Assembly: GCA_002774355.1 (NCBI GenBank)
Contig: PEYN01000072.1
Coordinates: 1-32,132, forward strand
DNA from: Candidatus Marinimicrobia bacterium CG08_land_8_20_14_0_20_45_22
Lineage (GTDB): Bacteria > Fidelibacterota > UBA2242
DNA: 32,132 bases
Reading direction: 5' to 3'
In this document: positions 14,657 through 32,060 of the stretch, piece after piece
Layout of the letters: every line of letters begins with the position of its first letter
Position numbering within the stretch: the stretch's first letter is position 1
Program-made: the position numbers and the translations under genes
The notes under the pieces: generated by a model
What the model was told of the DNA's origin: nothing
Database searches by the model: none
What the model saw: the letters and a program-made list of their open reading frames with translations, nothing else

Positions 14657-15745
14657 TCAGAGGCGTTTTTGAGTGGTTGGATCGAAATAATGAATTTTGT
14701 CCATATCAATCCAAATCTGACAGCAGCCGTCTGAATCCGGCTGAATAATCTGGCCAGCCCGGCTGACGATCACAGTTTTACCGGTTGTAAAATAGGCAAT
14801 GACCTCGTTGCCAAGCGGCTCGGTCAGTTCCAGTTTCAATTTGATGGGAGCGCCCGCCGATGCGGTTTGAGCCAGATGAATATCTTCTGGCCGGATGCCC
14901 ATTACAATTTCCCGGCCGATAAATTCTTCCAATTGTTGAGGATGATCGGTAGGGATCTGAATTTGGCACTGGCCTTCGTCAAGCAGCAGACCGTTTTCCA
15001 TTTTTATGACACCATGTACAAAATTCATGCTGGGATTGCCGATAAAACCGGCTACGAATATATCGGCCGGTTTCCGATAGAGTTCCAGCGGTGAATCAAC
15101 CTGATATACGAGCCCGTCTTTCATGACGGAAATCCGGTCGCCCATCGTCATAGCTTCGACCTGGTCATGAGTGACATAAACCATCGTAATCTTTAGTTGC
15201 TGATGCAGTTTCTTGATTTCCGTCCGCATCTGGAGGCGCAGCTTGGCATCCAGATTCGATAGTGGTTCGTCAAATAAAAAAACTTTGGGATTGCGGACGA
15301 TGGCGCGGCCCAGGGCTACTCGCTGACTCTGACCTCCGGAGAGCTGCTTCGGCTTACGTTTTAAAAGGTTAGTTAATTCGAGAATTTCAGCGGTTTCTTT
15401 TACCCGCTTATCTATTTCACTTTTGGAGATATTGCGCAGTTTGAGACCAAACGCCATATTTTCATAGACCGTCATGTGCGGATAGAGCGCATAATTCTGA
15501 AACACCATGGCAATATCACGATCTTTTGGGGCAACATTATTGACTAATTTGCCATCAATATAAACTTCGCCTTCAGTGGCTTCCTCCAGGCCAGCGATTA
15601 TCCGCAGCGTCGTCGACTTACCGCACCCGGACGGACCGACCAGTACATAAAATTCGCCGTCATTGATGGTCAGGTTCAGGTTTTTAATAACGGTGGTTTC
15701 CTTGCCGAAAACCTTGGTCAGATTCTTTAGTTCAATATTTGCCAT
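14657..15745 (-). CDS. ABC transporter ATP-binding protein, MalK/UgpC type
   Basis: A 362-residue cytoplasmic ATPase that drives CUT1-type sugar importers. All core motifs are present: Walker A GPSGCGKST (37-45), Q-loop Gln83, signature LSGGQ (135-139), Walker B VFLFDE (155-160) and H-loop His193. A C-terminal TOBE/regulatory region (about 235-362) includes GIRPEDIHLA. The length is normal for the family. A ribosome site (AGGA) precedes the ATG. No permease genes lie beside it; the nearest set, at 25472-28630, has no ATPase of its own, so this is its likely motor. The gene is divergent from a UroD-family remnant, and the spacer contains an operator-like repeat also present before the GntR gene. 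Confidence 0.93.
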   Translation of the reverse strand: MANIELKNLTKVFGKETTVIKNLNLTINDGEFYVLVGPSGCGKSTTLRIIAGLEEATEGEVYIDGKLVNNVAPKDRDIAMVFQNYALYPHMTVYENMAFGLKLRNISKSEIDKRVKETAEILELTNLLKRKPKQLSGGQSQRVALGRAIVRNPKVFLFDEPLSNLDAKLRLQMRTEIKKLHQQLKITMVYVTHDQVEAMTMGDRISVMKDGLVYQVDSPLELYRKPADIFVAGFIGNPSMNFVHGVIKMENGLLLDEGQCQIQIPTDHPQQLEEFIGREIVMGIRPEDIHLAQTASAGAPIKLKLELTEPLGNEVIAYFTTGKTVIVSRAGQIIQPDSDGCCQIWIDMDKIHYFDPTTQKRL

Positions 15746-15846
15746 TTCAGTCCTATCACGGTTAAGCGGTTAATCCGGCAGCGACATGCAATTTATCAAT
15801 TTCTTCTTGATACTAAGCGGAAATTAATATAAACTTTTTACGTTCT

Positions 15847-15865
15847 AAAGTCAACAAATGACTTT
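15847..15865. promoter_or_regulatory. Operator-like inverted repeat AAAGTCA-N5-TGACTTT, copy 1
   Basis: A perfect 7-base inverted repeat with a 5-base spacer lies in the divergent region, about 100 bases before the ABC ATPase start and 26 before the UroD remnant. The same pattern, followed by ATGA, recurs at 16497-16515 before the GntR gene. Two matching dyads around one regulator gene suggest its binding sites. Confidence 0.6.
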
Positions 15866-15890
15866 ATGAATTTTATCAATTTAGTAAGCA

Positions 15891-16373
15891 ATGACTATAA
15901 CAATGACAACTAATGAAAGAATCCGGCGGATGTTCGAACACCGCGAAGCCGACCGCATTCCGATTACGGATTCACCCTGGAGAACTACCATCGAACGCTG
16001 GCATCGCGAAGGATTATCGCCAAACCAGAGTTGGGTGGACTATTGCGGGATAGACCATGTCGAAAGGATTCGTGTCGACAATTCACCCCGTTTTCCCGAA
16101 CTGGTAATCGAAGAAACCGAAGAATATAAGATATATACGACCAAATGGGGCGCCACGCAAAAAGAATGGAAGCATGTTCAGTCTTCCTCGGAATTTCTGG
16201 ATGTCACGATTACCGATCCCGAAGCTATTACAATGGAAATGCAGCGGCTGATTCCGGTATTAAAAGAGTCCGGCGGTTACATATTTTCATCTGATCATTC
16301 GGTTCCCCCCAGTGTTAGTCTGGCCGATTTCCGAAGAATAATTGCACTAGCCAAGACTCTGGGAACCTACTAA
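15891..16373 (+). pseudogene. UroD/MtaA-family protein with a large internal deletion
   Basis: The 160-residue frame keeps both ends of the family. At the N-terminus it has TNERIRRMFEHREADRIPI, then WRTTIERWHREG. At the C-terminus it has ESGGYIFSSDHSVPPSVSL and IIALAKTLGTY, the usual closing motif. Full-length relatives have about 340-370 residues, so roughly 190 are missing between about residue 118 (ITDPEA) and 125 (MQRLIPV), including the metal-site region. The deletion kept the frame, so a short protein may still be made, but it cannot form the full TIM barrel. The start may be ATG 15891 or 15903. It lies just after operator copy 1 and diverges from the ABC ATPase. Confidence 0.75.
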
Positions 16374-16458
16374 ACAATCAATATCCGGAAAAATACTCAA
16401 TCGTATTCGTCTAAACATCGTCGATAATTCCAGATACAGAGTGAGATAAAAAAAATCC

Positions 16459-16485: not shown

Positions 16486-16496
16486 TTCAAGGTCGT

Positions 16497-16515: not shown

Positions 16516-16543
16516 ATGACTTGACAAATCTCGAGGAGTAAAA

Positions 16544-16651: not shown

Positions 16652-16663
16652 CCAGTGGAAATC

Positions 16664-17362
16664 ATGAACAACATCACGCCCATTAACAAACAATCTCTGC
16701 CGGATACGATCGCCCGGGAAATCCGCAATTTCATCATTGATCGCAATTACCACAAAGGCGACCGGCTTCCGGCTACTGCCGAACTGGCCAAGTTATTTGG
16801 AGTTGGATTACCGACCTTACGCGAAGCTATTAAAAAACTGGAAACGATTGGCACCGTCGAGGTCAAACATGGTTCCGGCACGTATGTCGGTAAATATTTC
16901 GACCGCCTTTTCCTGCCGAATCCGATAGCCACATATGAGCCCCTGAAAAAGGCCAGATTGCTGGAATTGATCGATGCTCGCATCGCTATTGAAAGCCGTA
17001 TCATTCATCTGGCAATACCCAATGTGGATGCTGAGCATTTAGCCCGAATCGAGCAATTGATGGCAAGAACCGAAAATTACCCGGATGATTATCTCAAATG
17101 CGCCCTGAATTATCTTGAAATCGAAAATATGATGCGGCAGGCGGCTAATAATACGATCCTGTTCGAAATCGTAATCGCGATAACCAATCTCTATTCCGAG
17201 GATCAATTGGAAATTCTGAATGCACATATGCCTCGCGAAAAAGACTATGAAATCCATCGCAATCTGCTCACAGCTCTCAAGACCGGCGATGAGAAGGAAG
17301 TCATCGAGCTCATGGAAACCCGCTTTAAAATCATCCGTGATATAATTGATCAGTATATGTGA
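16664..17362 (+). CDS. GntR-family transcriptional regulator, FadR/FCD-like
   Basis: A DNA-binding repressor or activator of about 232 residues. The N-terminal winged helix is clear: IAREIRNFIIDRNYHKGDRL, then TAELAKLFGVGLPTLREAIK and VKHGSGTYV. The C-terminal helical domain (about 100-232) fits the FCD ligand-binding fold, but the usual metal-binding D-x3-H pair appears replaced (LEIENMM where DxEFHxx is expected), so the ligand may bind without metal. ATG 16664 is preferred over GTG 16655 because GTGGA sits just upstream. The gene lies between two copies of a shared dyad and the receptor operon, with 34 bases to the receptor start, so it is the likely local regulator. The inducer is unknown, presumably a sugar from the glycan. 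Confidence 0.87.
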   Translation: MNNITPINKQSLPDTIAREIRNFIIDRNYHKGDRLPATAELAKLFGVGLPTLREAIKKLETIGTVEVKHGSGTYVGKYFDRLFLPNPIATYEPLKKARLLELIDARIAIESRIIHLAIPNVDAEHLARIEQLMARTENYPDDYLKCALNYLEIENMMRQAANNTILFEIVIAITNLYSEDQLEILNAHMPREKDYEIHRNLLTALKTGDEKEVIELMETRFKIIRDIIDQYM

Positions 17363-17396
17363 TTTTTGTCTGATATATTTTTTAGGGAGATGTTAA

Positions 17397-20300
17397 ATGG
17401 GCCGGACATTAAATCGAATAATCTTCAGCAGTCAAACAATACTCCTGTTTACGGCATTTTCTTTTGCTGGTGTTACAGGAAAAATCCGGGGAATCGTGAC
17501 TGACAAGAGTACGGGAGCGTCGCTGATCGGAGCGAATGTCATCTTGGATGGTACGGTATTCGGGGCCGCCACTGATCAGAATGGCGAGTATTTTATATTA
17601 TCTGTTCCACCCGGAACATATTCTCTCAATTTTTCCATTATCGGTTACAAGAAAACGACGATGACTGACGTAAAAGTAATCATCGACCATACCACAGCGG
17701 TTAACGTAGAGCTGGAATCTCAGGCAATCAATCTGGGCGAAGAAGTCGTTGTAGTCGCCAAACGGCCGGTCATTCAAAAGGATATAACTAACAGTACCCA
17801 GTTCGTCGAGATGGAAGAATTGATGCAGCTGCCTTTCAGTGATGCCAAAGAAGCCCTGATGGTGCAAACGGGCGTTTTTATGGACCCGCTACCAGTCATA
17901 AGCGGGCCGAATGCGGCCGGACGGGGTGAAAACCGCTACTCGATCCGGGGCGGCGATCAGGGTGAAGTCAAATGGTTTATTGATGGAGTCCGCGTCGCTT
18001 CACTTTTTGAGGGTCGGGCCGACCGGGGCGGTTCTTTCACTAATATTAATATCTACTCCGTTCAGGAAGTCCAGATGATAACCTCCGGTTTTAATGCCGA
18101 ATTTGGCGAGGCTCAATCCGGTATCGTCAACGTCGTGACAAAAGAGGGTAAGGAAAAACTGAATTTTTCACTCGACTATGAGTACGGTCTGTCCGGACAA
18201 CATCATTCCGGTAATTATATTTATTCCCATCCGAGTTCTGGCAAATACCAGAATTGTGTTCGCGATATGTACGATGAATATAATGCCTGGCTGGCCTCTT
18301 TTGACAGCTCCACTCCGACCGCCGCGGATTCGGCGGCTTTCAGCGAATCCATGTCCGCCGCTGACGAAAAATGGTGGTCAAAATATCAAAAGGAATACCG
18401 CGACCACACCAACACTCCCAGTGATATCTGGTGGCTGAATTACGCATACAATTATCATAACGATTCTCTGGCGCTGGGAGAGATCGATCCGAACTGGATG
18501 ACGGCTTATCGTAAGAAATACATCTATGATTATCGCAAGATACCGGATTATAATTTTTATTTCACGGTGGGCGGACCACTTTTCAAACTTGGTGATATCC
18601 GGAGTACCTTTTTTCTGGCCACCCAGCTTAAAAGCGAAGCCTACACCTTGCCGCATCCCCGAGATTCCCATGATATAACCAACCTGACCTATAATTTTGC
18701 CTTTCAGGTCAAATCAAACATGAAATTACGCCTGAGCGGATTTTATAATTTGGACGAGGGCACCACAATGCAGGAATACGGTCAGTTTGTCAATCAGGCT
18801 AAATATTACCGCGGCTGGGGTTCACTGCTCGATACAAAAAATATCGATGTCAATCTGTTCTGGGATCATATAATCTCCAATAAGATGAATTATGATCTGA
18901 AATTAAGCTACTACCTGACCGATATTAAGGAATACCCTGGCGAGTATACCGAATTGGGAAGCAGCTCCAATCCCGATATCTGGGGCTGGCAGCGCTACGA
19001 CACTCTTTCCTACGATACCTATGTCGAGCCGTTCGATGCCTGGTCATTTATCTATGATCAGCATTGGCAAACCAGCGACTTGTCTTTGGTCGGCAGCTGG
19101 AAGTGGCAATGGAATTCCTATAATTTATTAAAAACCGGTTTCGAGTTTCGTTATAATAAAATCGCCGAACTGAAATCATATCGTTTTTCATCTTCTACTG
19201 ACTGGACTGAATACCCTGAACTTTACATGAACCGCAGTTTAAATGAAACCTATTATCCCATTCAATTCGCGACCTACATCCAGAATAAAATGGAATTCGA
19301 AAGCATGATCCTGAATCTCGGGCTGCGCTATGATTATTTCAATGCCAACCGCAACTGGTTTGCCACCAACAATATTTACCAGTTCAGTGTCAATCCTAAC
19401 TATGACGAGAGTCTTGATCCCGACGGGGATCAGGTTGATTCAAATGGTAATATTAAATATTCCTGGGAAAATGTCCTCAATCAACCGCGTGAAAAAACTG
19501 ATTCCTATCATATGATCAGTCCGCGTCTGGGTGTATCGTTCCCAATCACTGAAAATACTTTATTGCATTTCAGCTACGGACATTTTTACCAGATGCCGCC
19601 CTTGGACCGGATGTTCGAACTCGGTTATCTGCGGTCCCAGTATCTGATCGATGCAATCGCCGCCGAAAATGCCGCTGCGGCAGCTGAAGGTCGCACCGCT
19701 AATCATGTTCCTTCGACTTCAGGTGATCCGGAGCGGGTAGTGTTTCTGACCGCTCAACCACTGAAGCCAGAACTGACCAAATCGTTCGAAGTCGGCATCA
19801 AACAAAATTTCGGGGACGTGGCTTCTCTGGAAGTCACGGCCTTTTACAAAGACCAGTTTGATAAAACCGATGCCCGTGCGCAATTATTCGATCGGCGAAT
19901 CTACGGCTATAATCCTTTCACCGGGGAAACATCCGAAACTGTTTTTTACGTCAGTTCATTCCCGGGTGATTATGGAGATGCGCGCGGTGTTGAAATGACT
20001 TTCAGAACGCTGATGTCATCAAATTACACCTTAGATGTCAGTTATAGTTTCTCCAAATCTACCATCGGTCGCGCCAGCCCAGCCTACATTTACATTGATT
20101 CATCCGGAAATTATACTTATACCTGGGACAGCGACGTCAATAAACGTATTCCGGTTCAGAACACTTACAGTCGCCCGCACACTTTACGAACCAACCTGTT
20201 CCTGAAATATCCGAGTGATCTTCATATTCCGTTCCTTACACCGGTATTTAAAGGCACCAGCGCCAGTATTCTGTATCAATATGTCAGCGGCCAGACTTTT

Positions 20301-20627
20301 ACCTACCTGGATGCCGACGATCCACCGGATACTTATGATAACTATCGCTTACCGCCCTATCAAACGGTTAATCTGCGTCTGGAAAAAGCCATTAATATCC
20401 GCAAAGACCAGCAGTTATTTGTCTATGTTCGTATCACCAACCTTTTTAACTGGAAATCTTTAATTTCTCTTGGCTCATCTTACTGGACAGAAAGTGACGA
20501 TATTTTAGCCGATTATATCGAAAATGGTACGGTCACAACCGTTGATGAATATGGTTATGATATTTCCTGGCAGACCTATGCTCCGCCCCGCCGGATTTAC
20601 TTTGGCCTAAAATATTGTTTTCGATGA
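17397..20627 (+). CDS. TonB-dependent receptor with carboxypeptidase-like N-terminal domain
   Basis: A 1076-residue outer-membrane transporter. After a signal peptide (about 1-24) comes a carboxypeptidase-regulatory-like domain (about 28-115: KIRGIVTDKSTGASLIGANV, then DQNGEYFILSVPPGTYSL). The plug follows (about 130-245: RYSIRGGDQGEVKWFIDGVR, then NAEFGEAQSGIVNVVTK), and then a long barrel rich in Tyr/Trp strands ending in YFGLKYCFR. The plug motifs are canonical. It resembles the SusC/OmpA-like receptors of FCB bacteria that take up oligosaccharides or other large ligands with TonB energy, but no SusD gene is adjacent. A good ribosome site (AGGGAG) precedes it. It heads the operon behind the GntR gene. 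Confidence 0.92.
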   Translation: MGRTLNRIIFSSQTILLFTAFSFAGVTGKIRGIVTDKSTGASLIGANVILDGTVFGAATDQNGEYFILSVPPGTYSLNFSIIGYKKTTMTDVKVIIDHTTAVNVELESQAINLGEEVVVVAKRPVIQKDITNSTQFVEMEELMQLPFSDAKEALMVQTGVFMDPLPVISGPNAAGRGENRYSIRGGDQGEVKWFIDGVRVASLFEGRADRGGSFTNINIYSVQEVQMITSGFNAEFGEAQSGIVNVVTKEGKEKLNFSLDYEYGLSGQHHSGNYIYSHPSSGKYQNCVRDMYDEYNAWLASFDSSTPTAADSAAFSESMSAADEKWWSKYQKEYRDHTNTPSDIWWLNYAYNYHNDSLALGEIDPNWMTAYRKKYIYDYRKIPDYNFYFTVGGPLFKLGDIRSTFFLATQLKSEAYTLPHPRDSHDITNLTYNFAFQVKSNMKLRLSGFYNLDEGTTMQEYGQFVNQAKYYRGWGSLLDTKNIDVNLFWDHIISNKMNYDLKLSYYLTDIKEYPGEYTELGSSSNPDIWGWQRYDTLSYDTYVEPFDAWSFIYDQHWQTSDLSLVGSWKWQWNSYNLLKTGFEFRYNKIAELKSYRFSSSTDWTEYPELYMNRSLNETYYPIQFATYIQNKMEFESMILNLGLRYDYFNANRNWFATNNIYQFSVNPNYDESLDPDGDQVDSNGNIKYSWENVLNQPREKTDSYHMISPRLGVSFPITENTLLHFSYGHFYQMPPLDRMFELGYLRSQYLIDAIAAENAAAAAEGRTANHVPSTSGDPERVVFLTAQPLKPELTKSFEVGIKQNFGDVASLEVTAFYKDQFDKTDARAQLFDRRIYGYNPFTGETSETVFYVSSFPGDYGDARGVEMTFRTLMSSNYTLDVSYSFSKSTIGRASPAYIYIDSSGNYTYTWDSDVNKRIPVQNTYSRPHTLRTNLFLKYPSDLHIPFLTPVFKGTSASILYQYVSGQTFTYLDADDPPDTYDNYRLPPYQTVNLRLEKAINIRKDQQLFVYVRITNLFNWKSLISLGSSYWTESDDILADYIENGTVTTVDEYGYDISWQTYAPPRRIYFGLKYCFR

Positions 20628-20654
20628 GAACGGTGTAACGCGAAGGATCAGATT

Positions 20655-22517
20655 ATGATAAGACCAATAATAAAAAGTATCTCCGCATTATCCATCCTAA
20701 TTTTATTAAGTACAACTGGTTGGGCTCAGCGCATACCATCATTTGAAATTCATGATCGCGGCATTCTCTGGGAAACCATGAAAGACGACGGAACTATTGG
20801 CGCTCCCAATCCGACCAGTCGCTATCAGTTCTATCCCAGCATGGACTGGCCGGGCGGCCCCTCCGAACTTTCAACCAAAGATAATCAGCGATCTTACATG
20901 GTCGGCGCCGGCATCTGGGTCGGTTGGAAAAACAGCAGCGGTTCGATCATTTTCTCCGAAAACGGACCAATTTCTTCGGTCTATTACGGGACATTCGAAG
21001 AACTAGTCAAAATCGAAAACTATGTGGAAAATGACAATTACGATCCGAGCCTGCCGGAGCAGACAATTATCGCTCAATGGACCACTCCGGAAAATATTCA
21101 CATCCGCCGCACCAGTAAAGCCTGGAGCTTCCCTGATATAAATAATTTCATCATCATAGATTATGTATTCACCAATCAAACCGGCGCTAAAATTAGCGAC
21201 GCTTACTTCGGTTTCGTTTATCTGATCAGACCCAGTTATCAGGATGTTATGGTCCATAATGGCTGGGGCGATGAGCTCAGCCGTGAGGATGAATCGGTGG
21301 CGTATGATACTAGCCGGGCTCTGTTATATGCCTATGACAATTATATGGCCGACTATACTCAATATATGTGGGATTATGGCAACTGGTGGGACGATGTCGA
21401 GGAAATTCGTTCTCCGGGTTATGCCGGGTATACACTGCTGGGAGCCGACGCTGCCTCCGACAGCAGAGCTCAACCCGCTAACGTATTTTGGACCAGTTTA
21501 ATCGTCAACAAGAGTAATAAATTTACCTTGAGGGGAACTGCAAGTGCTTCCGATCTCTACGCCTTTTTAACCGGCTCAAATAATTCGCTCCAATCCGATC
21601 CGGAAACTCATATTTCTCCTATCATGATTATGAGCTGTGGGCCATATGATCTCGAAGCCGCCGATTCTGTAAAAATCACGCTCGTCGAAGCTGTAGATGG
21701 CTTGCCATTGAAAGATTGTATCAATATCAAATACGATAAAGTAGCAGATACCCAAGCTAATTTACCACAAGGATTGGCACTCCTTCATGAAACCATCGAT
21801 GACGCTCGTGTGCTTTATAATAATAACTGTCGGGTCACGGCCGTTCCACCGCCTTCACCTGAAATTGATATCGTGCCACTACCTTCCAGTCAGGAAATTT
21901 CCGTCAGCTGGGATCCTTATGAAACTGATTATCTGGATCCGCTCACCGGGCGGAATGATTTAAAGGAATATATCATTTATCGCAGTGAATACTCTTATAA
22001 CGGACCCTGGACGACTAAAGTAAAAAGTATCAAGCCCGGGAATTCCATCTCAATAACTCGTTATTTTAATGCAGAAACCGGTCGTTGGCAATATAATGAC
22101 AATACCATCAATCTGGGCGTCGGTTATTATTATGCCGTGACCGCTAAGGATAGCTCCGGTAATGAAAGCTGGCTGACCAACCGCAATTCCGAAGCCGTTC
22201 TGGCCGCCAGTTTTCCGGATTCAACCACGAAAAATGTCAAGGTTTTCCCTAATCCATTCCGCGAAAAATCCGGATTCCCGGCTACGGATGATGCCAATTC
22301 GATCGTCTGGACCAATTTGCCGGCCATATGCACGATCCGCATTTACACGTCCGCCGGAGAATTGGTCAAGACCCTTAAACACAATAATGCCGCTTCCGGT
22401 GAAGAGGTTTGGGACCAGCTGACTGACTCCCGCCAGCGGACGGCGCCGGGCATTTATTTCTGGACGGTGGAATCAAGCGTCGGGAATGCCAAAGGTTCGT
22501 TAATCCTGATCAAATAA
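20655..22517 (+). CDS. Secreted protein of unknown function with T9SS C-terminal domain
   Basis: A 620-residue protein with a signal peptide (ending TGWAQ). The central part (about 30-400) is beta-rich, with many Trp and Tyr residues and no family I can name. A fibronectin-III-like stretch follows (about 405-515, with ISVSWDPYETDYLDP and YYYAVTAKDSSGN). The last 98 residues begin VKVFPNPFREKSG and end in GSLILIK, a T9SS sorting domain. It is therefore probably exported through the outer membrane and anchored or released there. It sits 27 bases after the receptor and directly before the PorV-like gene. In gene order it occupies the place a SusD lipoprotein would take, so a ligand-binding role at the receptor is a fair guess, though it shows no SusD features. 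Confidence 0.8.
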   Translation: MIRPIIKSISALSILILLSTTGWAQRIPSFEIHDRGILWETMKDDGTIGAPNPTSRYQFYPSMDWPGGPSELSTKDNQRSYMVGAGIWVGWKNSSGSIIFSENGPISSVYYGTFEELVKIENYVENDNYDPSLPEQTIIAQWTTPENIHIRRTSKAWSFPDINNFIIIDYVFTNQTGAKISDAYFGFVYLIRPSYQDVMVHNGWGDELSREDESVAYDTSRALLYAYDNYMADYTQYMWDYGNWWDDVEEIRSPGYAGYTLLGADAASDSRAQPANVFWTSLIVNKSNKFTLRGTASASDLYAFLTGSNNSLQSDPETHISPIMIMSCGPYDLEAADSVKITLVEAVDGLPLKDCINIKYDKVADTQANLPQGLALLHETIDDARVLYNNNCRVTAVPPPSPEIDIVPLPSSQEISVSWDPYETDYLDPLTGRNDLKEYIIYRSEYSYNGPWTTKVKSIKPGNSISITRYFNAETGRWQYNDNTINLGVGYYYAVTAKDSSGNESWLTNRNSEAVLAASFPDSTTKNVKVFPNPFREKSGFPATDDANSIVWTNLPAICTIRIYTSAGELVKTLKHNNAASGEEVWDQLTDSRQRTAPGIYFWTVESSVGNAKGSLILIK

Positions 22518-22528
22518 AGGTGATGCGC

Positions 22529-23473
22529 ATGCAAAGAATATTCCTAATTATATCAATCACGGCGATCCTGACAATTGAAACACAGGCTCAATTTGATTAC
22601 GGATTCGATTTTTCCAAAGCCGGCAGCGCCGGACTACAATTTCTGAAGATCGGTGTAGGTGCCCGGGAAGCTTCTATGGGTGAAGCCTTTACCAGTCTGT
22701 CCGAAGGTGTCAATTCGGTTTTTTGGAATATCGCCGGTATTGGTTTCCTTACCCGGACAGCCGTAACTTTTTCACATAGTAACTGGCTGGTGGAAAGCAG
22801 TCACGATGCTTGCGCGATTGCAATTCCGATTCGCTCAATCGTAGTCGGAGTCAGTGCGATCAGTTTTCGGATTCAGGACTTCGAAGAAACAACTGTATCC
22901 GCTCCTAACGGAACCGGAAATATGATCCGCGCCGGCGATTATATGCTGGCTCTGGCCGTCGCCCGGCGCTTTACCGATAAACTGACGATCGGTCTGCAAA
23001 TAAAATATGCCGAGGAGATTCTGGATAACTACAATTATGGCAACGTCTTATTCGACATCGGCACAATTTACCGGACCGGATTCCGCGATCTGAAACTGGC
23101 TTTCGCTCTGCAGCATTTCGGCCCGGACAAGGTTTTAGCCGAACAACAATTCCGTATGCCTTTGCTATTTAGAGTCGGCGCTAGTGATAATATTTTTAAC
23201 ACCCGGACCCAACGCCTGACAGTTTCCGGAGAATTATTGCATCCGACCGACGCCAACGAGTATTTCTGTATCGGTCTGGAATATGAGTTTTTAAAAATGC
23301 TGGCCCTGCGCGGCGGTTATCGGACCAACGATTTCGAACATTATCTGACCACCGGATTCGGGTTGAAATTGCCCAATATTGGTTATTTTGGAACTAACTT
23401 CGACTATGCCTATGTTTCCTACGGCGATGTATTTGAAACAACGCATCGTTTTACACTCGGGATGTCTTTTTAG
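22529..23473 (+). CDS. PorV/PorQ-like (UPF0164) outer-membrane protein
   Basis: A 314-residue protein with a signal peptide (ending TQAQ). LQFLKIGVGAREASMGEAFT, then SVFWNIAGIGF, is the hallmark start of the PorV/UPF0164 group, a 14-strand FadL-like barrel. The end, HRFTLGMSF, is a typical barrel terminus. PorV is the T9SS shuttle that receives cargo from the translocon, and many FCB genomes carry several paralogues. Here the gene lies between two T9SS cargo genes, which suggests service to them. Possible starts are GTG 22520, ATG 22523 and ATG 22529; AAAGG at 22516-22520 is best spaced for 22529. Confidence 0.85.
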   Translation: MQRIFLIISITAILTIETQAQFDYGFDFSKAGSAGLQFLKIGVGAREASMGEAFTSLSEGVNSVFWNIAGIGFLTRTAVTFSHSNWLVESSHDACAIAIPIRSIVVGVSAISFRIQDFEETTVSAPNGTGNMIRAGDYMLALAVARRFTDKLTIGLQIKYAEEILDNYNYGNVLFDIGTIYRTGFRDLKLAFALQHFGPDKVLAEQQFRMPLLFRVGASDNIFNTRTQRLTVSGELLHPTDANEYFCIGLEYEFLKMLALRGGYRTNDFEHYLTTGFGLKLPNIGYFGTNFDYAYVSYGDVFETTHRFTLGMSF

Positions 23474-23480
23474 AGTAATA

Positions 23481-25475
23481 ATGAGATTTAGAACTACCGG
23501 ACAGAATATTTCCAATTTGATTCAGAGTGTGGGCCTGACTGGCGGCATGTTGCTCCTTACTCTCATACTGGCTCGGTGTAAATTCACTTCCGTTCAGCAG
23601 CCTGCCGGAGCTAAAACCGGCGATACAATTGCCGTTTATCTGACTGTCAAAGAAGATTACGCCGAAACCACCAACGCCCATAAAGGCTTGATCGGGGTAC
23701 TGGTTCCCGAAGACTGGACCTTTATTTCCGGCACCTATTCCAGCTCGGTCGGAAGTGGAAATTTGGAGTATTCCTCCAACTGGACCGATTCAGCCGAAAT
23801 ATATTATCCGGTCGGCGAATACGGGGATAATCTGAAGTGGATTGTGGTTCTTTCCGATTCCGGCTATATGTATTCCGATTTGCCCTCCGCGGATGTTACT
23901 TTGTTACTCAATACCGGAACGCTGGAAGGTTGTTTCAAAATGGCCTATATCGCCACCAAAGCTACCACCGGGCTTTTGGGAACCGGCTGGACGGCCTTTT
24001 CATATCCGCATGCAATTGGGATTCCCGATTCGACCGCCTGCGAAGGTTCCGATACGACCACCCTGAAAACGGAACGGGCTCCAGACTGGGATGATTTATT
24101 CAATCGCACCTCTGGCTGGACCGGAGCGGATGGCATTTATTCCATCCCGCTATCGGGTTGTGACATATTTAGAGATGACAGTCTGCAGAAAACTTTATTT
24201 CTGTTCAGCGATACCTTCATCGGTAGCGTTAACTCGGAAGGGAAACGGGTTAATTCCAAGCTTGTAAATAATACTTTGGCATTGCTAACCGGCTATGAAC
24301 CATCCGATGAAAAGACCGAGTTTACCTGGGGAGAGACCGCCAGTGGCACTCCAACGGCTGTATTTATCCCGGATACTCCTGAGTCTGCCTCCGGGGATTG
24401 GTATTGGTTAATGGATGGCATTGCGATTGGCGACACCGTTTACATTTACGGTATGCGCCTCAGCCCGAGTTCCACCAGTTCGCTGGGCTGGGAAATATCC
24501 GGAGTAGCCCTGATTTCATTTGCCGTTGACGACGATTTCAATATCTTCGACGTCAAACAGGTCGATACGCCTTTTCTCTATAACGCCTCAGACGGAACGC
24601 AGACAATCATTGGCCAGGCGATTATGCCAATGACGGAAGAATCTGGCAATCCGAACGCGGACGGCTTTCTGTATGTTTATGGGCCGCGCAGTGGGAGCGT
24701 AAGCCGGGAAATGGTCGTCTCCAGAGTTTTACCGCAAAATATCACCGATTTTTCGCAGTATCGCTACTGGAATGGCAACGACTGGGTAGCCGACATTGCC
24801 GAATGTGAAGCCTTAACCAATTCCATCTCAATGGAATTCAGCGTAACGCCTCTCGCAGACGGACGCTATATCTGTGTCTTCCAGCTGAACACCGTCAGTC
24901 GCAGTGTGGCGGTCAGATTCGGTGATAGCCCAACCGGACCGTTTGGCTATTATCAGCTTATCTGGGATTGTACGGAGAGCGACTCGAACCCCAATATCAT
25001 CATGTATAATGCCAAAGCCCATCCGCATCTGTCGAATCACGGCGAACTGCTGATCAGTTATAATGTCAATTCCTTCAATTACGATTCGTTTACCTATGTG
25101 GACATTTACCGTCCGCGGTTCATTACCCTGACCTACGACGACCAAAGCGGAGTAATTTATTGCCACTCAAAAGTTGTCCCGGAACAGTACACTTTATTAC
25201 AGAATTACCCCAATCCCTTTAACGCCACCACCCGGCTTACCTATCAACTTAGTCAGACATCTGACATTACTTTAAATATTTATGATTTGACCGGTCGACT
25301 GGTCCGCACTCTGGTTCAAAATCGCGCCGCCGCCGGAACGTACCAGGTTTTCTGGAACGGTGTTGATAGCATTGGCCGGCCGCTTCCGAGCGGGATTTAT
25401 TTTGCCCGAATCCAAATCCAGACGACCAACCGGCAGATGTTAACCGAAACCTGTAAGCTAATGCTGTTAAAATGA
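23481..25475 (+). CDS. DUF5005-like propeller protein with T9SS C-terminal domain
   Basis: A 664-residue secreted protein. Earlier in-frame ATGs back to 23379 lie inside the PorV-like gene, and ATG 23481 follows its stop by seven bases. The N-terminus has a hydrophobic segment (GGMLLLTLILARC), possibly a signal or lipoprotein peptide, though Arg before Cys is atypical for a lipobox. A cohesin-like or Ig-like stretch follows (about 45-190). Then DWDDLFNRTSGWTGADGIYS, TLFLFSDTFIG and DWYWLMDGIAIGDTVYIYG match the DUF5005/DUF4185 type of five-bladed propeller related in fold to glycosidases. The final 92 residues begin LLQNYPNPFNATT and end in LMLLK, a T9SS domain. A carbohydrate-acting surface protein is likely; the activity is unproven. 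Confidence 0.8.
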   Translation: MRFRTTGQNISNLIQSVGLTGGMLLLTLILARCKFTSVQQPAGAKTGDTIAVYLTVKEDYAETTNAHKGLIGVLVPEDWTFISGTYSSSVGSGNLEYSSNWTDSAEIYYPVGEYGDNLKWIVVLSDSGYMYSDLPSADVTLLLNTGTLEGCFKMAYIATKATTGLLGTGWTAFSYPHAIGIPDSTACEGSDTTTLKTERAPDWDDLFNRTSGWTGADGIYSIPLSGCDIFRDDSLQKTLFLFSDTFIGSVNSEGKRVNSKLVNNTLALLTGYEPSDEKTEFTWGETASGTPTAVFIPDTPESASGDWYWLMDGIAIGDTVYIYGMRLSPSSTSSLGWEISGVALISFAVDDDFNIFDVKQVDTPFLYNASDGTQTIIGQAIMPMTEESGNPNADGFLYVYGPRSGSVSREMVVSRVLPQNITDFSQYRYWNGNDWVADIAECEALTNSISMEFSVTPLADGRYICVFQLNTVSRSVAVRFGDSPTGPFGYYQLIWDCTESDSNPNIIMYNAKAHPHLSNHGELLISYNVNSFNYDSFTYVDIYRPRFITLTYDDQSGVIYCHSKVVPEQYTLLQNYPNPFNATTRLTYQLSQTSDITLNIYDLTGRLVRTLVQNRAAAGTYQVFWNGVDSIGRPLPSGIYFARIQIQTTNRQMLTETCKLMLLK

Positions 25476-26878
25476 AAGTGAAAACCGCCAAAATAATGAA
25501 CTACCCCGAAGCAAGCTTCGAGGAATTCTCTCGATTAAAAACATCCGTAATGACCGCCCTGGCCATTGGAGCTGCCATCATCCTTTTTTACCCACGCAGC
25601 CAGGCCCGGCCTACCGACCAACGTACGATTTCCTTCTGGAGTTGCAGCGGGCAGAAAGAAGATGTGCCTTTCATCGTAACCGCATTCAACGCCGCCCAGG
25701 ATTCGATTCGCGTCCTGTCCAATGCCATTCCCTGGCAGGAACAGGAGAAAAAAGTGCTGACGGCCATTCTGAGCGATAACCCACCGGATGCAGTTTCCCA
25801 GTTTATTCCGATTGTCAAATGGGCTTCGCGCATGGCACTGATGCCACTGGATGAACTGATTGCCCGGGATGACTTTGATACAGCAGCATTTTACCCGGCG
25901 TTGTGGCAGGAAATGAAATGGCTGGGTCACGTCTTTGGGATTCCGGTCAGTTCTGCTTCCTTTGCCTTCTTTTATAACAAAAAACTTTTTCGAGAAGCCG
26001 GTCTTGATCCGGAACGTCCGCCGAAAACCTGGGACGAAGTGGCTGCATACACGAAAAAACTGACGCGCTATGATGCTTCGGGAAATATCATTCAGATGGG
26101 CTTTTATCCCTTCTATAAATCGGCGCTGACAGCTTCGCAAAACTCACCATCTACACCTCTAATAATTGCCTGGGAGAAGGGAGCCTCCTTTCTCAGTGCT
26201 GATGGCAAACGGGTAACGCTAATCAACCCGCAATATGTGGAAGCTCTGGAATGGCTGCTGGATTTCACTAAGCCTTATCCCGTGGAAAAAATGGAAGCCT
26301 TTTCCGCCGGGTTCGGATACGGCGATCAGCACGCTTTCACCTCCGAAAAGGTTGCGATGATGATACTTCCGGATATCTTTCCTGATTATATCCGCCATCA
26401 CGCACCAGAACTGGATTACGGCATCGCGCTGACTCCGACCTTTCCGGGTTGTCCGATTGCCTCGTCGTCAGGATGCTGGTGGCTGGCAATTCCCCGGGGG
26501 TGCAAAGACCCAGAAGCCGCCTGGGAATTCATTAAGTTCGCCGCTAGTAAAAAAGTGCAATTAGACGCCTATAGCGTGATGGACCAAAATCTGTTTCCCG
26601 CCAACCGGCTGGCTACTGCCGATTCAATTTTTCTGCGGGATGGTAAGATGCAGATTTTCGTAACGCACCTGGAACACGCTCAGTCGCCGACGATCGTTCC
26701 GATGGCGCACGATGTCTTCTGGCGCGAATTTTACACAGCCCAGGAACTGATCGTCTACGGTAACCAGTCAATTGAAAAGGCCCTCGGCACGGCTCAGACC
26801 ATTATCCAGCATGAATTGGACAAGGCCCTGACCTATGACGAATATGTCCGTAGCAAAATGAAATTTTTCGATGAATAA
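25472..26878 (+). CDS. ABC transporter sugar-binding protein, family 1
   Basis: A 468-residue extracytoplasmic solute-binding protein of the carbohydrate group (CUT1). A positively charged N-terminus precedes a hydrophobic segment at about 25-42, a signal peptide or anchor; no clear lipobox is seen. Family features follow: TISFWSCSGQKEDVPFIVTA at the start of the mature protein, FAFFYNKKLFREAGLDPERP, then PPKTWDEVAAYTKKL, and CWWLAIPRGCKDPEAAWEFI. It captures an oligo- or monosaccharide in the periplasm and hands it to the two permeases encoded next. Its start overlaps the preceding stop (ATGA), and its own stop overlaps the first permease by eight bases. In-frame alternative starts at 25496 and 25550 would shorten the leader. 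Confidence 0.9.
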   Translation: MKVKTAKIMNYPEASFEEFSRLKTSVMTALAIGAAIILFYPRSQARPTDQRTISFWSCSGQKEDVPFIVTAFNAAQDSIRVLSNAIPWQEQEKKVLTAILSDNPPDAVSQFIPIVKWASRMALMPLDELIARDDFDTAAFYPALWQEMKWLGHVFGIPVSSASFAFFYNKKLFREAGLDPERPPKTWDEVAAYTKKLTRYDASGNIIQMGFYPFYKSALTASQNSPSTPLIIAWEKGASFLSADGKRVTLINPQYVEALEWLLDFTKPYPVEKMEAFSAGFGYGDQHAFTSEKVAMMILPDIFPDYIRHHAPELDYGIALTPTFPGCPIASSSGCWWLAIPRGCKDPEAAWEFIKFAASKKVQLDAYSVMDQNLFPANRLATADSIFLRDGKMQIFVTHLEHAQSPTIVPMAHDVFWREFYTAQELIVYGNQSIEKALGTAQTIIQHELDKALTYDEYVRSKMKFFDE

Positions 26879-27785
26879 GAAGATGCAGAAAACGACGAAA
26901 AATCCTCTCTACAAAAAGCAAGCCTGGCTCGGCTACCTTTTCGTGGCGCCCTGGATAATAGGATTCCTGGTTTTCGGCCTGTACCCGATTGTGATGTCTT
27001 TTTATTACAGCCTTTGCCAGTATGATGTCCTGCGGATTCCCCAGTTTATCGGCATGGGAAATTATCGGGAGTTATTGTTTGAAGACCCATATTTCTGGAA
27101 ATCGGCCTGGAATACAGCGTTTTATACTTTTATCCGGACGCCATTGGTGGTTATTGGGTCGTTGCTGCTGGCTGTTCTTGTTAATAATGCCATGAAGGGG
27201 ATCAAGATTTTCCGGACGATCTTTTTCATTCCATCAATTATTACCGGTGTGGTGTTGTCCGCCCTATGGCTCTGGCTGCTGAATCCCCAATACGGGCTGA
27301 TCAATTCCATTCTCGCCTTTTTCGGTTTGCCTGGACCGCTCTGGCTGCAAAGTCCGCACTGGTCCAAACCGTCAATTATTCTGATGAGCTTGTGGTCAAT
27401 TGGCGGCGGACGCATGCTGGTATTTCTGGCAGCTCTTCAGGGCATTCCCAAAGCGCTCTACGAAGTGGTGGATATCGACGGTGGCGGCTGGTGGAAAAAA
27501 TTTCGGTATATAACGGTTCCAATGGTATCGCCGGTGATCTTTCTCTGGACGGTCCTGGAAGTAATCTTTTCCTTTCAGGTATTTACAGAGGCCTATGTTA
27601 TGACCAAAGGCGGACCGATGAATTCCACCCTGTTCTATAATCTGTATCTCTATTATAAAGCCTTTGATGATTTCAGCATGGGCTACGCTTCGGCGCTGGC
27701 CTGGTTGCTGATGGTGATCATCCTGGTGGTTACGCTGATTCAGTTTATCGTTGGTAAAAAAGTCGTCTATTACGAGGGGGCCTGA
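26871..27785 (+). CDS. ABC sugar permease, MalF/UgpA type
   Basis: A 304-residue inner-membrane protein with about six hydrophobic helices, starting WLGYLFVAPWIIGFLVFGLY. This is the classic beginning of MalF/UgpA-type permeases. The EAA loop that docks the ATPase is at about 198-217 (EVVDIDGGGWWKKFRYITVP). FTEAYVMTKGGPMNSTL is another family mark. It overlaps the binding-protein gene and is followed after five bases by the second permease, giving the usual order of binding protein, permease, permease. The missing ATPase is probably the one at 14657-15745. Confidence 0.93.
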   Translation: MNKKMQKTTKNPLYKKQAWLGYLFVAPWIIGFLVFGLYPIVMSFYYSLCQYDVLRIPQFIGMGNYRELLFEDPYFWKSAWNTAFYTFIRTPLVVIGSLLLAVLVNNAMKGIKIFRTIFFIPSIITGVVLSALWLWLLNPQYGLINSILAFFGLPGPLWLQSPHWSKPSIILMSLWSIGGGRMLVFLAALQGIPKALYEVVDIDGGGWWKKFRYITVPMVSPVIFLWTVLEVIFSFQVFTEAYVMTKGGPMNSTLFYNLYLYYKAFDDFSMGYASALAWLLMVIILVVTLIQFIVGKKVVYYEGA

Positions 27786-27790
27786 GCAGT

Positions 27791-28630
27791 ATGAAGCCGA
27801 TCCGGCCGACGACAGTCCGAACATTTCTGGCGTATCTGCTTCTAGTAGCGGTTTCACTTGTTCTGATCATGCCCTTTGTCTGGATTATCTCGACTTCCCT
27901 GAAGGGCAACGAATCGATTTTTGCCATACCCCCGAAATGGATTCCGGAAACGCTGCATTGGGAAAATTATGCCAAGGTCTTTACCCAGATGCCCTTTTTT
28001 ACCTACATGAGAAATTCAGTATTTATCTCCGTGGTGGTGATTCTCGGCACCGTGCTGTCCAGTTCGCTGGTGGCTTACGCCTTTGCCTGTCTGAAATGGC
28101 CGGGTCGGGATGGGCTCTTTATCTTTGTGCTGGGCACCATGATGCTGCCCATGCAGGTAACGATGATTCCGGTGTTTGTGCTGTTCAAACAGTTTGGTTG
28201 GCTGAATACCTTCAAACCGCTGATTGTCCCAGCATTTTTTGGCGGTGGTGCGTTCAATATATTCCTGTTAAGGCAGTTTTTTCTGACAATACCTAAAGAA
28301 CTGTTTGAAGCAGCTCGCATCGATGGCTGTTCTGAATGGCGGATTTACTGGAAAATTGTTTTGCCCCTGGCGAAACCGGCGCTGGCCACGGTGGCGATTT
28401 TGACATTCATGATGACCTGGAACGATTTTCTGGGACCCTTGATTTATTTATCTGATAAACTGAAAGGAACCCTGGCGCTGGGACTGGCCATGTTTGTCGG
28501 TCAGTACCAGACGGAGTGGGGAGTGTTGATGGCGGCCTCCGTGCTGGTAATGCTGCCGGTGATTTTTCTGTTTTTCCTGTTTCAGAAATATTTCATTCGC
28601 GGTTTTATGATGAGCGGCATCAAAGGTTAA
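27791..28630 (+). CDS. ABC sugar permease, MalG/UgpE type
   Basis: A 279-residue inner-membrane protein with about six helices. The N-terminal VLIMPFVWIISTSLKGNESI and the EAA loop at about 173-195 (EAARIDGCSEWRIYWKIVLP) are standard for MalG/UgpE permeases, as is the C-terminal FFLFQKYFIRGFMMSGIKG. It forms the translocation pore with the preceding permease. The next gene, a GH38-like enzyme, starts four bases after its stop, so import and hydrolysis are in one transcript. Confidence 0.93.
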   Translation: MKPIRPTTVRTFLAYLLLVAVSLVLIMPFVWIISTSLKGNESIFAIPPKWIPETLHWENYAKVFTQMPFFTYMRNSVFISVVVILGTVLSSSLVAYAFACLKWPGRDGLFIFVLGTMMLPMQVTMIPVFVLFKQFGWLNTFKPLIVPAFFGGGAFNIFLLRQFFLTIPKELFEAARIDGCSEWRIYWKIVLPLAKPALATVAILTFMMTWNDFLGPLIYLSDKLKGTLALGLAMFVGQYQTEWGVLMAASVLVMLPVIFLFFLFQKYFIRGFMMSGIKG

Positions 28631-28634
28631 CAGA

Positions 28635-31600
28635 ATGAAGAAAAGACTTTCAATATCTATTTTGCTCTGGAGTATTCTGCTGGGATTTTCGGTAATACCC
28701 GAGGCTTTACCGCTGCAATTGTCTGCCAACGGCACAATTCCGGCCTGGCTGGTGGCCGGACCATTCAATCTGGAATTTCTCGGCTTTGGGGCTTTTGCCG
28801 ATTCGATTTTGCTCGATGAAACCCAACTCCAGCCGGCCATTGGAAAAACTGAAATCAGCGATCTGACCCAAAGTAAAACTACGACCTGGCAATATCAGGC
28901 ATCCAATCCGGGCGGATATGTTGATCTGAGCACCGCCATCGGCTGGGCTATTCCCGGTCGCGGAACCGAAAAAATCTGGTGGGGAAAAGCCGGTCTGGCA
29001 GCCACCTACCTGTATAGCCCAACCGAAATTGATGCCTTTTTGCTGACCGGCAGCAATTCCCGCTTAAAAATCACTTTGAATAATCAGGAAATATTCCGGC
29101 ATTGGAGTGACCGCAATGCTCAGGCCGACGCCGACACCATAGCCATTAATCTTAAAAAAGGCGCTAATCTGTTGGTTCTGACGGTCACGAATTCTCATTC
29201 TAATTTATACCCATTCCTCTTCGGCGGACTGGATTTGAAGTGGGGATTTTATGCCCGTTTGACCGATCGTAATCTCCAGCCTTTACAAAATATCGAAGCG
29301 CGACTCGCGAAAACCGAAAACCTACTCGACTTTGAACTGACTCCAACCATTTACTTTAAAAAAGGTAATGCCGGCCAATTATTACAGCGGCTCGATCTGG
29401 TCATCACGGCCTCGGATGCTCAAACTGAGCCGTTTGATTTCTCTATCAAGATTAACAAGAAAACCTACTCGTTTACGTTATCCCAAATCCCGGCCGGAAT
29501 CAGTCGCCGAGAAGTATATATTGACGAACCGGCCACGGATATTAAAGCCAGTTGCCTTCTGAAATCCGGCACGCGAAAAATCGGCAAAACCGTCAATCTG
29601 ACCCGGCAGCAACACTATCAGGTCTACCTGAACCTGATCTCGCACATGGATATCGGATACACCAACACTCAACCGGTCGTCGCCGAGCGGCATATTCAGA
29701 CGCTAGATGACGTCATAGACTATTGCGACCGATATCCGGATTTCAAATGGACGGTCGAAACAACCTGGATTCTCGAGAAATACCGCGAAACCCGTTCTAC
29801 AGCCCGGTTTCAAAAACTGATGGACCTGATAAAATCCGGCCGCATTGCGGTTTCGCCGATCTATTCCAATCCATATACCGGAATTATCAGCTACCCGGAA
29901 ATGACCCGTTCGTTCGACCTGGCTAAAAAACTTGCCGATGAATTCGGGATTTCCTTTCAAGCCGCGATTGTCAATGATCTGCCCGGTTTGTCCTGGATTA
30001 TTCCGCAGGTTTTAAACCAGGCTGGAGCGTCCTTTTTAGTTTGCGGTATCAATGATTTTTACGAAAAATACGCCGTGCGGAAAAATATCCCGAAAGTCTT
30101 TTACTGGGAAGGCGCCGATCACAGCAAGGTCTTAACCTATTTGACGAATGCCTACAACGAAGGCTTAATTTACGGTTTTGAAAAAGACACAACCGGCCTG
30201 GAAATCGGTTTATGGCAAAACCTCAAACAACTAAAGGCTTCCGGATATACCTTCGACCTCGTTTATCTGAATGCAGCCGTTAATGATAACAGTGGTATTC
30301 CCAAGTCTCAATTCGAAGCCGCGCAACATTGGAATCAGGTTTATGAATTCCCAAAAATTATTATCTCAAACCTGAACCAGTTTGCAACCGACTTTTCGGC
30401 TAAATATTCCGATGGTATTCCGACTCTGCGAGGCGACTGGACTTCCACCTGGGACATTCTTTATCAGAGCGAGCCGGAACTCTTTATCAATCATCGCGCC
30501 ATACAGCAAAAATTAATTTCAGCCGAAAAACTGACTACTCTCGACTGGTTGCTGAATCCGGAGGTGCTACCGGAAGAAAAAGAACTTTCAGAAGCGTATC
30601 GGTCTACCCTGAATTTTGCCGGACACGGTTCCGGTTTGGAATACAGCTACGGTTCCGCCGAGGAGAATCAGTGGGCGATGGCCAACCGCGTGGGCAATAT
30701 CAGCTTAGCCGAGTTGTTGGCTGAGGAGGTTTTGGAACGTAGTCTCTACCGTTTTTGCGTACCCCATTTCGCATTCGAAGCCAACGGCCTGCTGGTTTTC
30801 AATACCCTAAGCTGGAAAAGAGATGTGCCTGTGACCATTCAATTGCCGCATCTGAATCAAACCGTTTATCAGATCGTTGATCTTACCAATGGCCAGGTCG
30901 TTCCCAGTTATCAGAAAAACAACGAGGTCTTTTTCATTGCCCGTTCGATGCCGTCGCTGGGCTATCGTAAATATGAATTTGTACCCGGAGAATTGCTTCA
31001 TGATTCCCCGGATTTAGTTTCAACATCAAATTCGGTTGAAAATAAATTCTATCGCCTTGATTTCGACCCGGAATCCGGACAAATTCTGTCGGTAACCGAT
31101 AAAAAAAGCAGACACGCAATCGCCGACGAGCGCTTCAACCAACTGCTCTGCGAGAAAAATCTCGGTAAAGTCGCGTCAATTCTGACAGCCGCTACGACAC
31201 AGGTAACGGTCCGGGATGAACGCCCTGTGCGTTTGGTCCTGGATATTCGGCGCCCCGGATTTCTACTGGAAAATGTTCAGTACATTTTATGGAGTAAGAT
31301 AGACAGGATCGACATCGAATTTTCGATTGACGTCAGTCGCCTTGGAAATACGGAAGTCATCGAAGAATACGAACTGGCTTTTCCTTTTCTTCTCAAACAG
31401 CCCAAGACAATGCTCGAAATCATTGGCGGTTTTTTGAATCCCGAAACGGATTGCCTGCCGAGTAAACTAAACTCCAGCTTTTCGATTCGCCGGAGCGTGG
31501 CTCTTTCCGACCAACAAACAACTGTGTCCTGGGCGGCTCTTGATAGTCGGATTATCGCTCTTAAAAAATTCGGGCAGGACAGCCAGCCGGTATTGTATTC

Positions 31601-32060
31601 CAACTTCATCAACAATTTCCCACAAAACTGGAATCGTCACCAGATTACCGAAGGTCTTTTGAAAACGCGATTCGCTGTAACCGCTCAGGACGGCCAGTTT
31701 AATCCCGGTTTCACCGCCCGGTTTGGTTGGGAAGCGGCTACGCCGGCTGTCACAATGCGGGCTCCGCTTTCGCACAAAGATCCACAGGAAAATTTTCTTT
31801 CTATCAACAGACAGGAAGTCATTTTATTAGCGCTTAAAACTGATTATAAAAATGGCGATCTAATCTTGGAATTACTCAACGTCGATCCGCAAAATGCCGT
31901 AACTGTAAACGTCGCATCCGATTTATTTAAAGGCAAGAACGCCTTCAGTGCCAATATTCTCGGCAAAAAACTCCAGCCGTTGCAAAAGCTGGGCGGTGCC
32001 TTGATTGTCAATATCAAACCCAATGAATTATTGCCTATCATATTAACCAATGAAAGATAA
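28635..32060 (+). CDS. GH38-family alpha-mannosidase-like glycoside hydrolase
   Basis: An 1141-residue secreted protein with a signal peptide (about 1-26). An N-terminal galactose-binding or PA14-like region (about 35-215) carries WLVAGPFN and LKKGANLLVLTVTNSH. The catalytic domain starts near 330. SHMDIGYT contains zinc-ligand candidates His337 and Asp339, in place of the usual HxDxGW, and VNDLPGLSW contains Asp448 at the position of the catalytic nucleophile. The 109-residue spacing agrees with known GH38 enzymes. A helical middle domain and long beta-sandwich C-terminal part (about 700-1141) follow, as in the family. GH38 enzymes cleave alpha-mannosides by a retaining, zinc-dependent mechanism. 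It has no T9SS tail, so it probably acts in the periplasm on fragments brought in by the TonB receptor. Confidence 0.85.
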   Translation: MKKRLSISILLWSILLGFSVIPEALPLQLSANGTIPAWLVAGPFNLEFLGFGAFADSILLDETQLQPAIGKTEISDLTQSKTTTWQYQASNPGGYVDLSTAIGWAIPGRGTEKIWWGKAGLAATYLYSPTEIDAFLLTGSNSRLKITLNNQEIFRHWSDRNAQADADTIAINLKKGANLLVLTVTNSHSNLYPFLFGGLDLKWGFYARLTDRNLQPLQNIEARLAKTENLLDFELTPTIYFKKGNAGQLLQRLDLVITASDAQTEPFDFSIKINKKTYSFTLSQIPAGISRREVYIDEPATDIKASCLLKSGTRKIGKTVNLTRQQHYQVYLNLISHMDIGYTNTQPVVAERHIQTLDDVIDYCDRYPDFKWTVETTWILEKYRETRSTARFQKLMDLIKSGRIAVSPIYSNPYTGIISYPEMTRSFDLAKKLADEFGISFQAAIVNDLPGLSWIIPQVLNQAGASFLVCGINDFYEKYAVRKNIPKVFYWEGADHSKVLTYLTNAYNEGLIYGFEKDTTGLEIGLWQNLKQLKASGYTFDLVYLNAAVNDNSGIPKSQFEAAQHWNQVYEFPKIIISNLNQFATDFSAKYSDGIPTLRGDWTSTWDILYQSEPELFINHRAIQQKLISAEKLTTLDWLLNPEVLPEEKELSEAYRSTLNFAGHGSGLEYSYGSAEENQWAMANRVGNISLAELLAEEVLERSLYRFCVPHFAFEANGLLVFNTLSWKRDVPVTIQLPHLNQTVYQIVDLTNGQVVPSYQKNNEVFFIARSMPSLGYRKYEFVPGELLHDSPDLVSTSNSVENKFYRLDFDPESGQILSVTDKKSRHAIADERFNQLLCEKNLGKVASILTAATTQVTVRDERPVRLVLDIRRPGFLLENVQYILWSKIDRIDIEFSIDVSRLGNTEVIEEYELAFPFLLKQPKTMLEIIGGFLNPETDCLPSKLNSSFSIRRSVALSDQQTTVSWAALDSRIIALKKFGQDSQPVLYSNFINNFPQNWNRHQITEGLLKTRFAVTAQDGQFNPGFTARFGWEAATPAVTMRAPLSHKDPQENFLSINRQEVILLALKTDYKNGDLILELLNVDPQNAVTVNVASDLFKGKNAFSANILGKKLQPLQKLGGALIVNIKPNELLPIILTNER

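Follow-up and report, generated by a model that had tools for sequence, protein, structure and literature searches.

The window analyzed here is the whole of contig C72 (32,132 bases) of the host metagenome-assembled genome (MAG; 2.63 Mb, 97% complete), whose closest named kin are Candidatus Neomarinimicrobiota (L049 and L059). Nine genes on the + strand, from a GntR regulator through a GH38 enzyme (positions 16655 to 32060), are separated by intergenic spacings of -8 to +34 bases and therefore likely constitute a single transcription unit. Because the window covers the entire contig, this operon may extend past the contig end. Gene identities, assigned using curated profile models, and gene spacing are well supported, and all of the genes listed in an earlier sequence-only reading of this DNA (i.e., a receptor, two T9SS-tailed proteins, a PorV-like protein, a CUT1 importer, a GH38 enzyme, and a GntR regulator) were present. 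The operon starts with a GntR/FCD transcription regulator identified by domain models (16655 to 17362), located 34 bases ahead of the gene for a TonB-dependent receptor (TBDT; 17397 to 20627). Downstream of the receptor are a protein of 620 amino acids, hereafter F620 (20655 to 22517), a PorV/PorQ-family barrel (22520 to 23473), and a protein combining DUF4961, DUF4185 (a five-bladed propeller resembling GH183), and an ordinary T9SS tail (23481 to 25475). The remaining genes encode a CUT1 extracellular solute-binding protein (25472 to 26878), ABC permeases of the UgpA/MalF type (26871 to 27785) and the UgpE/MalG type (27791 to 28630), all three recognized by domain models, and a GH38 alpha-mannosidase-like enzyme with a signal peptide (28635 to 32060). 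As had been proposed, the ATPase of the importer lies outside the operon. It is encoded by a divergent neighbor of the UgpC/MalK type (14657 to 15745, - strand), which scored 488.7 bits against the UgpC subfamily cutoff of 432 and has an OB_MalK domain.

The TBDT is composed of an N-terminal CarbopepD_reg_2 domain, a Plug domain, and a barrel. It failed the SusC/RagA model (TIGR04056), with a partial match of 81.7 bits against a cutoff of 368. F620 was characterized by AlphaFold2 modeling, a fold search, a family alignment, and its tail class. The predicted structure (pLDDT, 84; pTM, 0.80; built on 38 relatives) comprises a signal helix, a beta-rich domain (residues ~30 to 390), an FN3-like domain, and a T9SS-type tail. 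No SusD fold was found among the 50 matches listed by the fold search, and Pfam showed no match of F620 to the SusD families PF07980 and PF14322. The best fold matches were GH94 phosphorylases and their relatives GH116 and GH161, the common element being a beta-sandwich domain. Because the TM scores were low (0.26 to 0.30 on the whole chain) and the rmsd was high, the model only suggests that the sandwich is of a carbohydrate type and a candidate for ligand binding. A PDB sequence search with F620 gave chance matches only, and a search of PHROGs gave no matches. The sandwich domain of F620 is the sole part of the system outside known families. Orthologs in the loci of other genomes were 49 to 74% identical to F620 of the window in the family alignment. 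No lipobox was found at the F620 N terminus, and anchoring must therefore come from the tail or from a partner. The tail itself is weak, scoring 16.8 bits against the TIGR04183 cutoff of 23 (i.e., below the cutoff for type A tails), and a comparison of tails across loci placed it in a class of its own, distinct from ordinary T9SS tails.

The barrel passed the PorV/PorQ family model (NF033709; 169.4 bits versus 90), fell below the PorV equivalog (NF033710; 54.8 bits versus 250), was also under the PorQ equivalog cutoff, and had a weak PorP match. Its AlphaFold2 model (pLDDT, 86) is a 14-stranded, FadL-type barrel. The predicted PorV fold is reflected in its top fold matches, the PorV chains 8gl6_F and 6h3i_F in T9SS translocon structures (TM, 0.73 to 0.76); the former is a PorV structure with a RemA tail bound. 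FadL and a BAM-associated barrel ranked behind PorV. The T9SS core is present in the host, with SprA and PorU detected at 800 and 750 bits, respectively. In a tree, five of the seven host barrels outside triads branched apart from the triad barrels; a single clade of triad barrels was not cleanly supported, as two barrels from T9SS regions, both on very long branches, fell among them. On host contig C33 (G000:C33), a SprA gene is followed by PorV-family barrels outside triads, which are likely T9SS components proper.

The DUF4185 gene probably starts at the ATG at position 23481 and not at the overlapping TTG at 23379. The DUF4185 domain was detected at 54.5 bits (versus 39.5 for Pfam), and the T9SS tail of the protein is of the ordinary type A (TIGR04183, 35.6 bits versus 23). 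DUF4185 corresponds to GH183, a family of endo-D-arabinanases (PMC10115798, PMC10509167). Using the catalytic residues described in the same two studies, we found that D217, D244, and E452 match the GH183 catalytic acids. The nucleophile, the acid/base Asp, and the third Glu were invariant in 14 sequences (the window protein and 13 relatives). Judging from these residues, the protein is likely a surface endo-glycosidase. Its N-terminal Cys is conserved between the window protein and the L050 to L059 orthologs, several of which have a perfect lipobox (e.g., ISGC); a conserved Cys or lipobox together with a T9SS tail represents an unusual double sorting signal. Ignavibacterial versions of the locus encode a second DUF4185 protein (L052, 18958 to 20037; L053, 20351 to 21439; L056, 18433 to 19500) that keeps all catalytic acids and is without a T9SS tail or an obvious signal peptide, and they also carry stand-alone DUF4961-T9SS proteins.

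The N-terminal domain of GH38 was recognized at 84.7 bits (versus 25). The enzyme keeps the zinc motif HxD as HMD (residues 337 to 339), and its D448 aligns with the Asp of PDTFG in 2wyh, in the region of the catalytic Asp. No T9SS tail was found on the window GH38, which is probably periplasmic. A second, T9SS-tailed GH38 lies directly behind the triad at another locus (L055, 12706 to 15597). The CUT1 importer set is complete in the window, consisting of an SBP_bac_1/8 protein, two BPD permeases, and the MalK/UgpC-type ATPase with its OB domain. The closest solved relative of the binding protein is 4r9f (MBP1; 116.7 bits), which we assume to be a mannan-oligosaccharide binder. A mannan or N-glycan substrate is a guess, and DUF4185 points to D-arabinofuranose as well. 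We tentatively propose, with about one chance in four, a glycan in which alpha-mannose and D-arabinofuranose both occur; arabinomannan or glycans of microbial surfaces would be examples.

The same components were found in Ignavibacteriota, a Melioribacter MAG, a KSB1 bacterium, and two Neomarinimicrobiota, at loci fetched by F620 similarity only; the gene set is thus conserved across phyla. Where enough contig was available, these loci contained TBDT, F620, PorV-like, DUF4185, and GH38 genes, often accompanied by a binding protein, two permeases, and GntR. The importer genes precede the receptor in Ignavibacterial versions, whereas they follow the DUF4185 gene in the window. The importer and GH38 are locus-specific additions, permuted in order or missing elsewhere, and the core of the locus is the ordered triad of TBDT, F620, and PorV-like barrel, not this particular glycan locus. 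Triads were found in Neomarinimicrobiota and in nine Ignavibacteriota/KSB1-type genomes. The F620 family is large: matches, some of them to the tail only, occurred in all 61 Neomarinimicrobiota genomes searched, and 15 to 71 matches per genome were found in nine other genomes. The order TBDT, F620, PorV-like was kept at 69 of 83 F620 genes, with many of the exceptions being due to contig ends or to the overlap filter. A few F620 genes were without a barrel or receptor nearby. This recurrence in dozens of genomes rules out a chimeric contig or a chance neighborhood. We could not find a prior description of the triad in the literature searched (mostly without subscription papers and preprints). 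The suggestion that the window holds an undescribed system can be kept in a modified form: the set recurs and no description was found, but the unit is the triad rather than the glycan locus. The host has at least eight triads, several with different enzyme sets, and almost all of the related loci inspected contained one.

Of 104 genes with a tail of the F620 class, 92 had a PorV-like gene behind them, and 87 of these also had a TBDT upstream. Ordinary T9SS tails within the same loci served as a working control. Only 4 of 99 had a PorV-like gene behind them; since loci were picked by F620 likeness, this value describes ordinary cargo near triads. The difference (92/104 versus 4/99) indicates that these genomes use two kinds of T9SS tail, one of which has its own barrel. 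Long open reading frames matching F620 in the tail only, which had been planned as a negative control, proved to belong to triads too. Additionally, the distances of TBDT, F620, and PorV-like proteins were correlated in 57 triads (r = 0.90 to 0.94; permutation maximum, 0.13), a correlation to which shared species history also contributes. For pairs with <40% identity, Spearman coefficients were 0.35 to 0.49, compared with at most 0.20 in permutations. Both the ordered linkage across phyla and the codivergence are well supported.

The enzymes beside the triads vary. In the host, the window triad is accompanied by GH38 and DUF4185, and others are accompanied by GH94 (C105), GH9 and a YdjC-type protein (C158), GHL10 proteins and a sodium-solute symporter (C118), and an FG-GAP T9SS protein (C33). 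The triads on C143, C17, and C60 lie beside SurA-like, PPIase, or trigger-factor genes, and such neighbors show no clear nutrient link, which counts against an uptake role. Just downstream of triads in other genomes we found GH20, GH9, GH18, GH66, GH106, PfkB and ROK kinases, CUT1 components, and amidohydrolases. Behind seven triads with a long F620 (~1,000 to 1,200 amino acids; L101, L104, L106, L107, L108, L113, and L114) lie genes for an InhA-like, T9SS-tailed protein of the protease type and for a subtilase. A glycan-only system was rejected on this basis, and a peptide-uptake branch of the triads seems to exist.

SusD is scarce where triads occur. The host genome had no match to PF07980 or PF14322, and PF07980 was not found in any of the 16 genomes of the host's family. 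Eleven of 61 Neomarinimicrobiota had a single copy or two of PF07980, and it occurred in 1 of 9 Ignavibacteriota/KSB1-type genomes. Among 118 genomes from the phylum that includes L053, none of the 20 SusD-rich ones (i.e., those with eight or more hits) had an F620 match, whereas 57 of the remaining 98 did (Fisher P = 3.6e-7, a nominal value because the genomes are related and are not independent samples). Both F620 and SusD were found in 29 genomes of that phylum, usually with few SusD copies. For the most part, one system stands in for the other, although the exclusion is not strict.

The absence of SusD from the host, the predicted non-SusD fold of F620, the conserved gene set, and the locus-specific barrel together make a T9SS protein in place of SusD the best reading of the locus. 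The sequence-only reading had tentatively assigned this role of binding layer to both T9SS-tailed proteins. For F620 it remains the best interpretation; the DUF4185 protein, with its ordinary tail, is most likely a surface endo-enzyme instead. We estimate a probability of roughly 0.6 that the triad is a SusCD-like uptake module in which a surface partner exported as T9SS cargo docks onto a PorV-like barrel dedicated to it. F620 would be exported through Sec and then through T9SS, and the cognate barrel would pick up its special C-terminal tail and carry or hold it at the surface beside the receptor. The barrel had been proposed as a dedicated shuttle. A locus-specific barrel does lie in one gene set with the receptor, but shuttling is one option and anchoring is as likely, given the PorP/SprF precedent described below. 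The F620 beta-sandwich would bind the substrate and hand it over or serve as a lid (i.e., the part played by SusD in SusCD). In the window system, the surface enzyme may cut the glycan, the receptor would then move oligosaccharides into the periplasm, GH38 may strip mannosyl residues, and the binding protein, CUT1 permeases, and ATPase would import the sugars into the cell, with GntR as the regulator. The weakest step is that F620 touches the receptor, which we infer from gene order and codivergence.

In the main rival reading, F620 takes no part in receptor function and is simply coregulated with the receptor. It would be a surface or secreted protein, i.e., a T9SS product (an adhesin or glycan binder) that is released or attached to LPS; the barrel would serve only its secretion, and the receptor would be lidless. 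T9SS cargo is generally released or attached by PorU, which the host has, and F620 is without a lipobox and has a tail related to type A tails. This explanation accounts poorly for the difference of F620-type tails from ordinary ones and their own barrel (92/104 versus 4/99), for a TBDT almost always lying upstream of F620, and for the codivergence of the two (r = 0.94), and we regard it as a rather unlikely, but the most serious, competitor of an uptake module. The barrel could alternatively be a FadL-type channel for small products and not the partner of F620, since FadL and channels for aromatic compounds are among its structural relatives. This is improbable, as its fold is closest to PorV chains of the T9SS, one of which has a substrate tail bound, and as the barrel tracks the F620-type tail whatever enzymes lie downstream, proteases included.

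Least credible is the view that F620 is SusD, or a lipoprotein like it, no longer recognizable by sequence, which would make the locus an ordinary polysaccharide utilization locus (PUL). The receptor is remotely SusC-like (81.7 bits), and the operon logic resembles that of a PUL, but the model of F620, which is of good confidence, shows a beta-sandwich with FN3 and tail, whereas SusD has a helical TPR fold; nor did we find an N-terminal lipobox in F620 or a PF07980/PF14322 match in the host. SusD in disguise was thus rejected by the fold and family searches.

An uptake module built on the triad has partial parallels in known systems. In SusCD PULs of Bacteroidota, too, a TBDT with an N-terminal CarbopepD_reg domain precedes a surface partner of its own, and a regulator and enzymes at the surface and in the periplasm are features of both systems. 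Both occur as numerous paralogs within a genome, each with a particular enzyme set, and the saccharide and peptide branches of SusCD have likely counterparts among triads. RagAB is the peptide branch of SusCD. Unlike SusCD, the triad is without SusD, its partner being a T9SS-tailed beta-sandwich protein with no lipid anchor; its core has the extra PorV-like barrel; and inner-membrane uptake in the window is through a CUT1 ABC importer. The triad may work like SusCD, yet it holds no SusD and its receptor falls below the SusC model. BtuB-BtuG of Bacteroides, which imports vitamin B12, is a TBDT with a non-SusD lid (PMC10404256). It resembles the triad in that a gene beside that of the TBDT encodes a surface partner of its own that is not SusD, and in lid-type uptake, which for F620 is a proposal; BtuG differs in being a lipoprotein beta-propeller without a T9SS tail or PorV-like barrel.

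Type B cargo of the T9SS stays attached to cognate PorP/SprF barrels of the PorV fold (PMC9143113), and a review proposed that cognate PorV-like barrels shield tails from cleavage (PMC10202324). As in the triad, specially tailed cargo is encoded beside its own PorV-fold barrel, with several pairs per genome. However, PorP/SprF pairs serve gliding or anchorage and have no TBDT in a fixed triad, and the triad barrels belong to PorV/PorQ (NF033709), with a weak match to PorP. The type B cargo and BtuBG precedents led us to propose a three-part outer membrane complex, in which the lid would be not a lipoprotein but T9SS cargo whose tail, left uncleaved, keeps it attached to a dedicated barrel. At close to even odds, complexes of this kind may form a class of TonB-dependent uptake machine in their own right, one that is widespread in FCB phyla poor in SusD and has split into importers for saccharides and for peptides. 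The GH183 loci for D-arabinan in Dysgonomonas and Microbacterium share the DUF4185 propeller with the GH183 catalytic acids (PMC10115798, PMC10509167), and that of Microbacterium also has an SBP_bac_8 ABC importer nearby. They differ in their outer membrane module and in their GH172 or GH116 partner, neither of which was found in the window, where GH38 is present instead.

Marinisomatota genomes have been described as being without most common sugar transporters and as having many TonB-dependent receptors (PMC8630151). The triad supplies such receptors with candidate partners, enzymes, and a testable mechanism, and it would join T9SS to nutrient uptake. F620 can serve as a marker for PUL-like loci missed by SusC/SusD searches in Neomarinimicrobiota, Ignavibacteriota, and KSB1-type genomes.

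Partial genes look abundant in the left half of the window. Upstream of the operon, a URO-D-like gene (15891 to 16373) has an in-frame internal deletion that joins residues 8 to 125 and 304 to 359 of an intact 359-amino-acid homolog (L049, 4658 to 5737), with the middle missing. An open reading frame at 13665 to 14273 has, by eye, an HRIVDG motif as in 2-oxoacid dehydrogenase acyltransferases, and one at 8065 to 9240 encodes an Eco57I-type methylase. Near the start of the window, two small secreted-looking proteins (307 to 1449) are packed with DxDGDGxxD repeats resembling calcium-binding motifs, and further along lies a predicted amidase with a T9SS tail (3698 to 6232).
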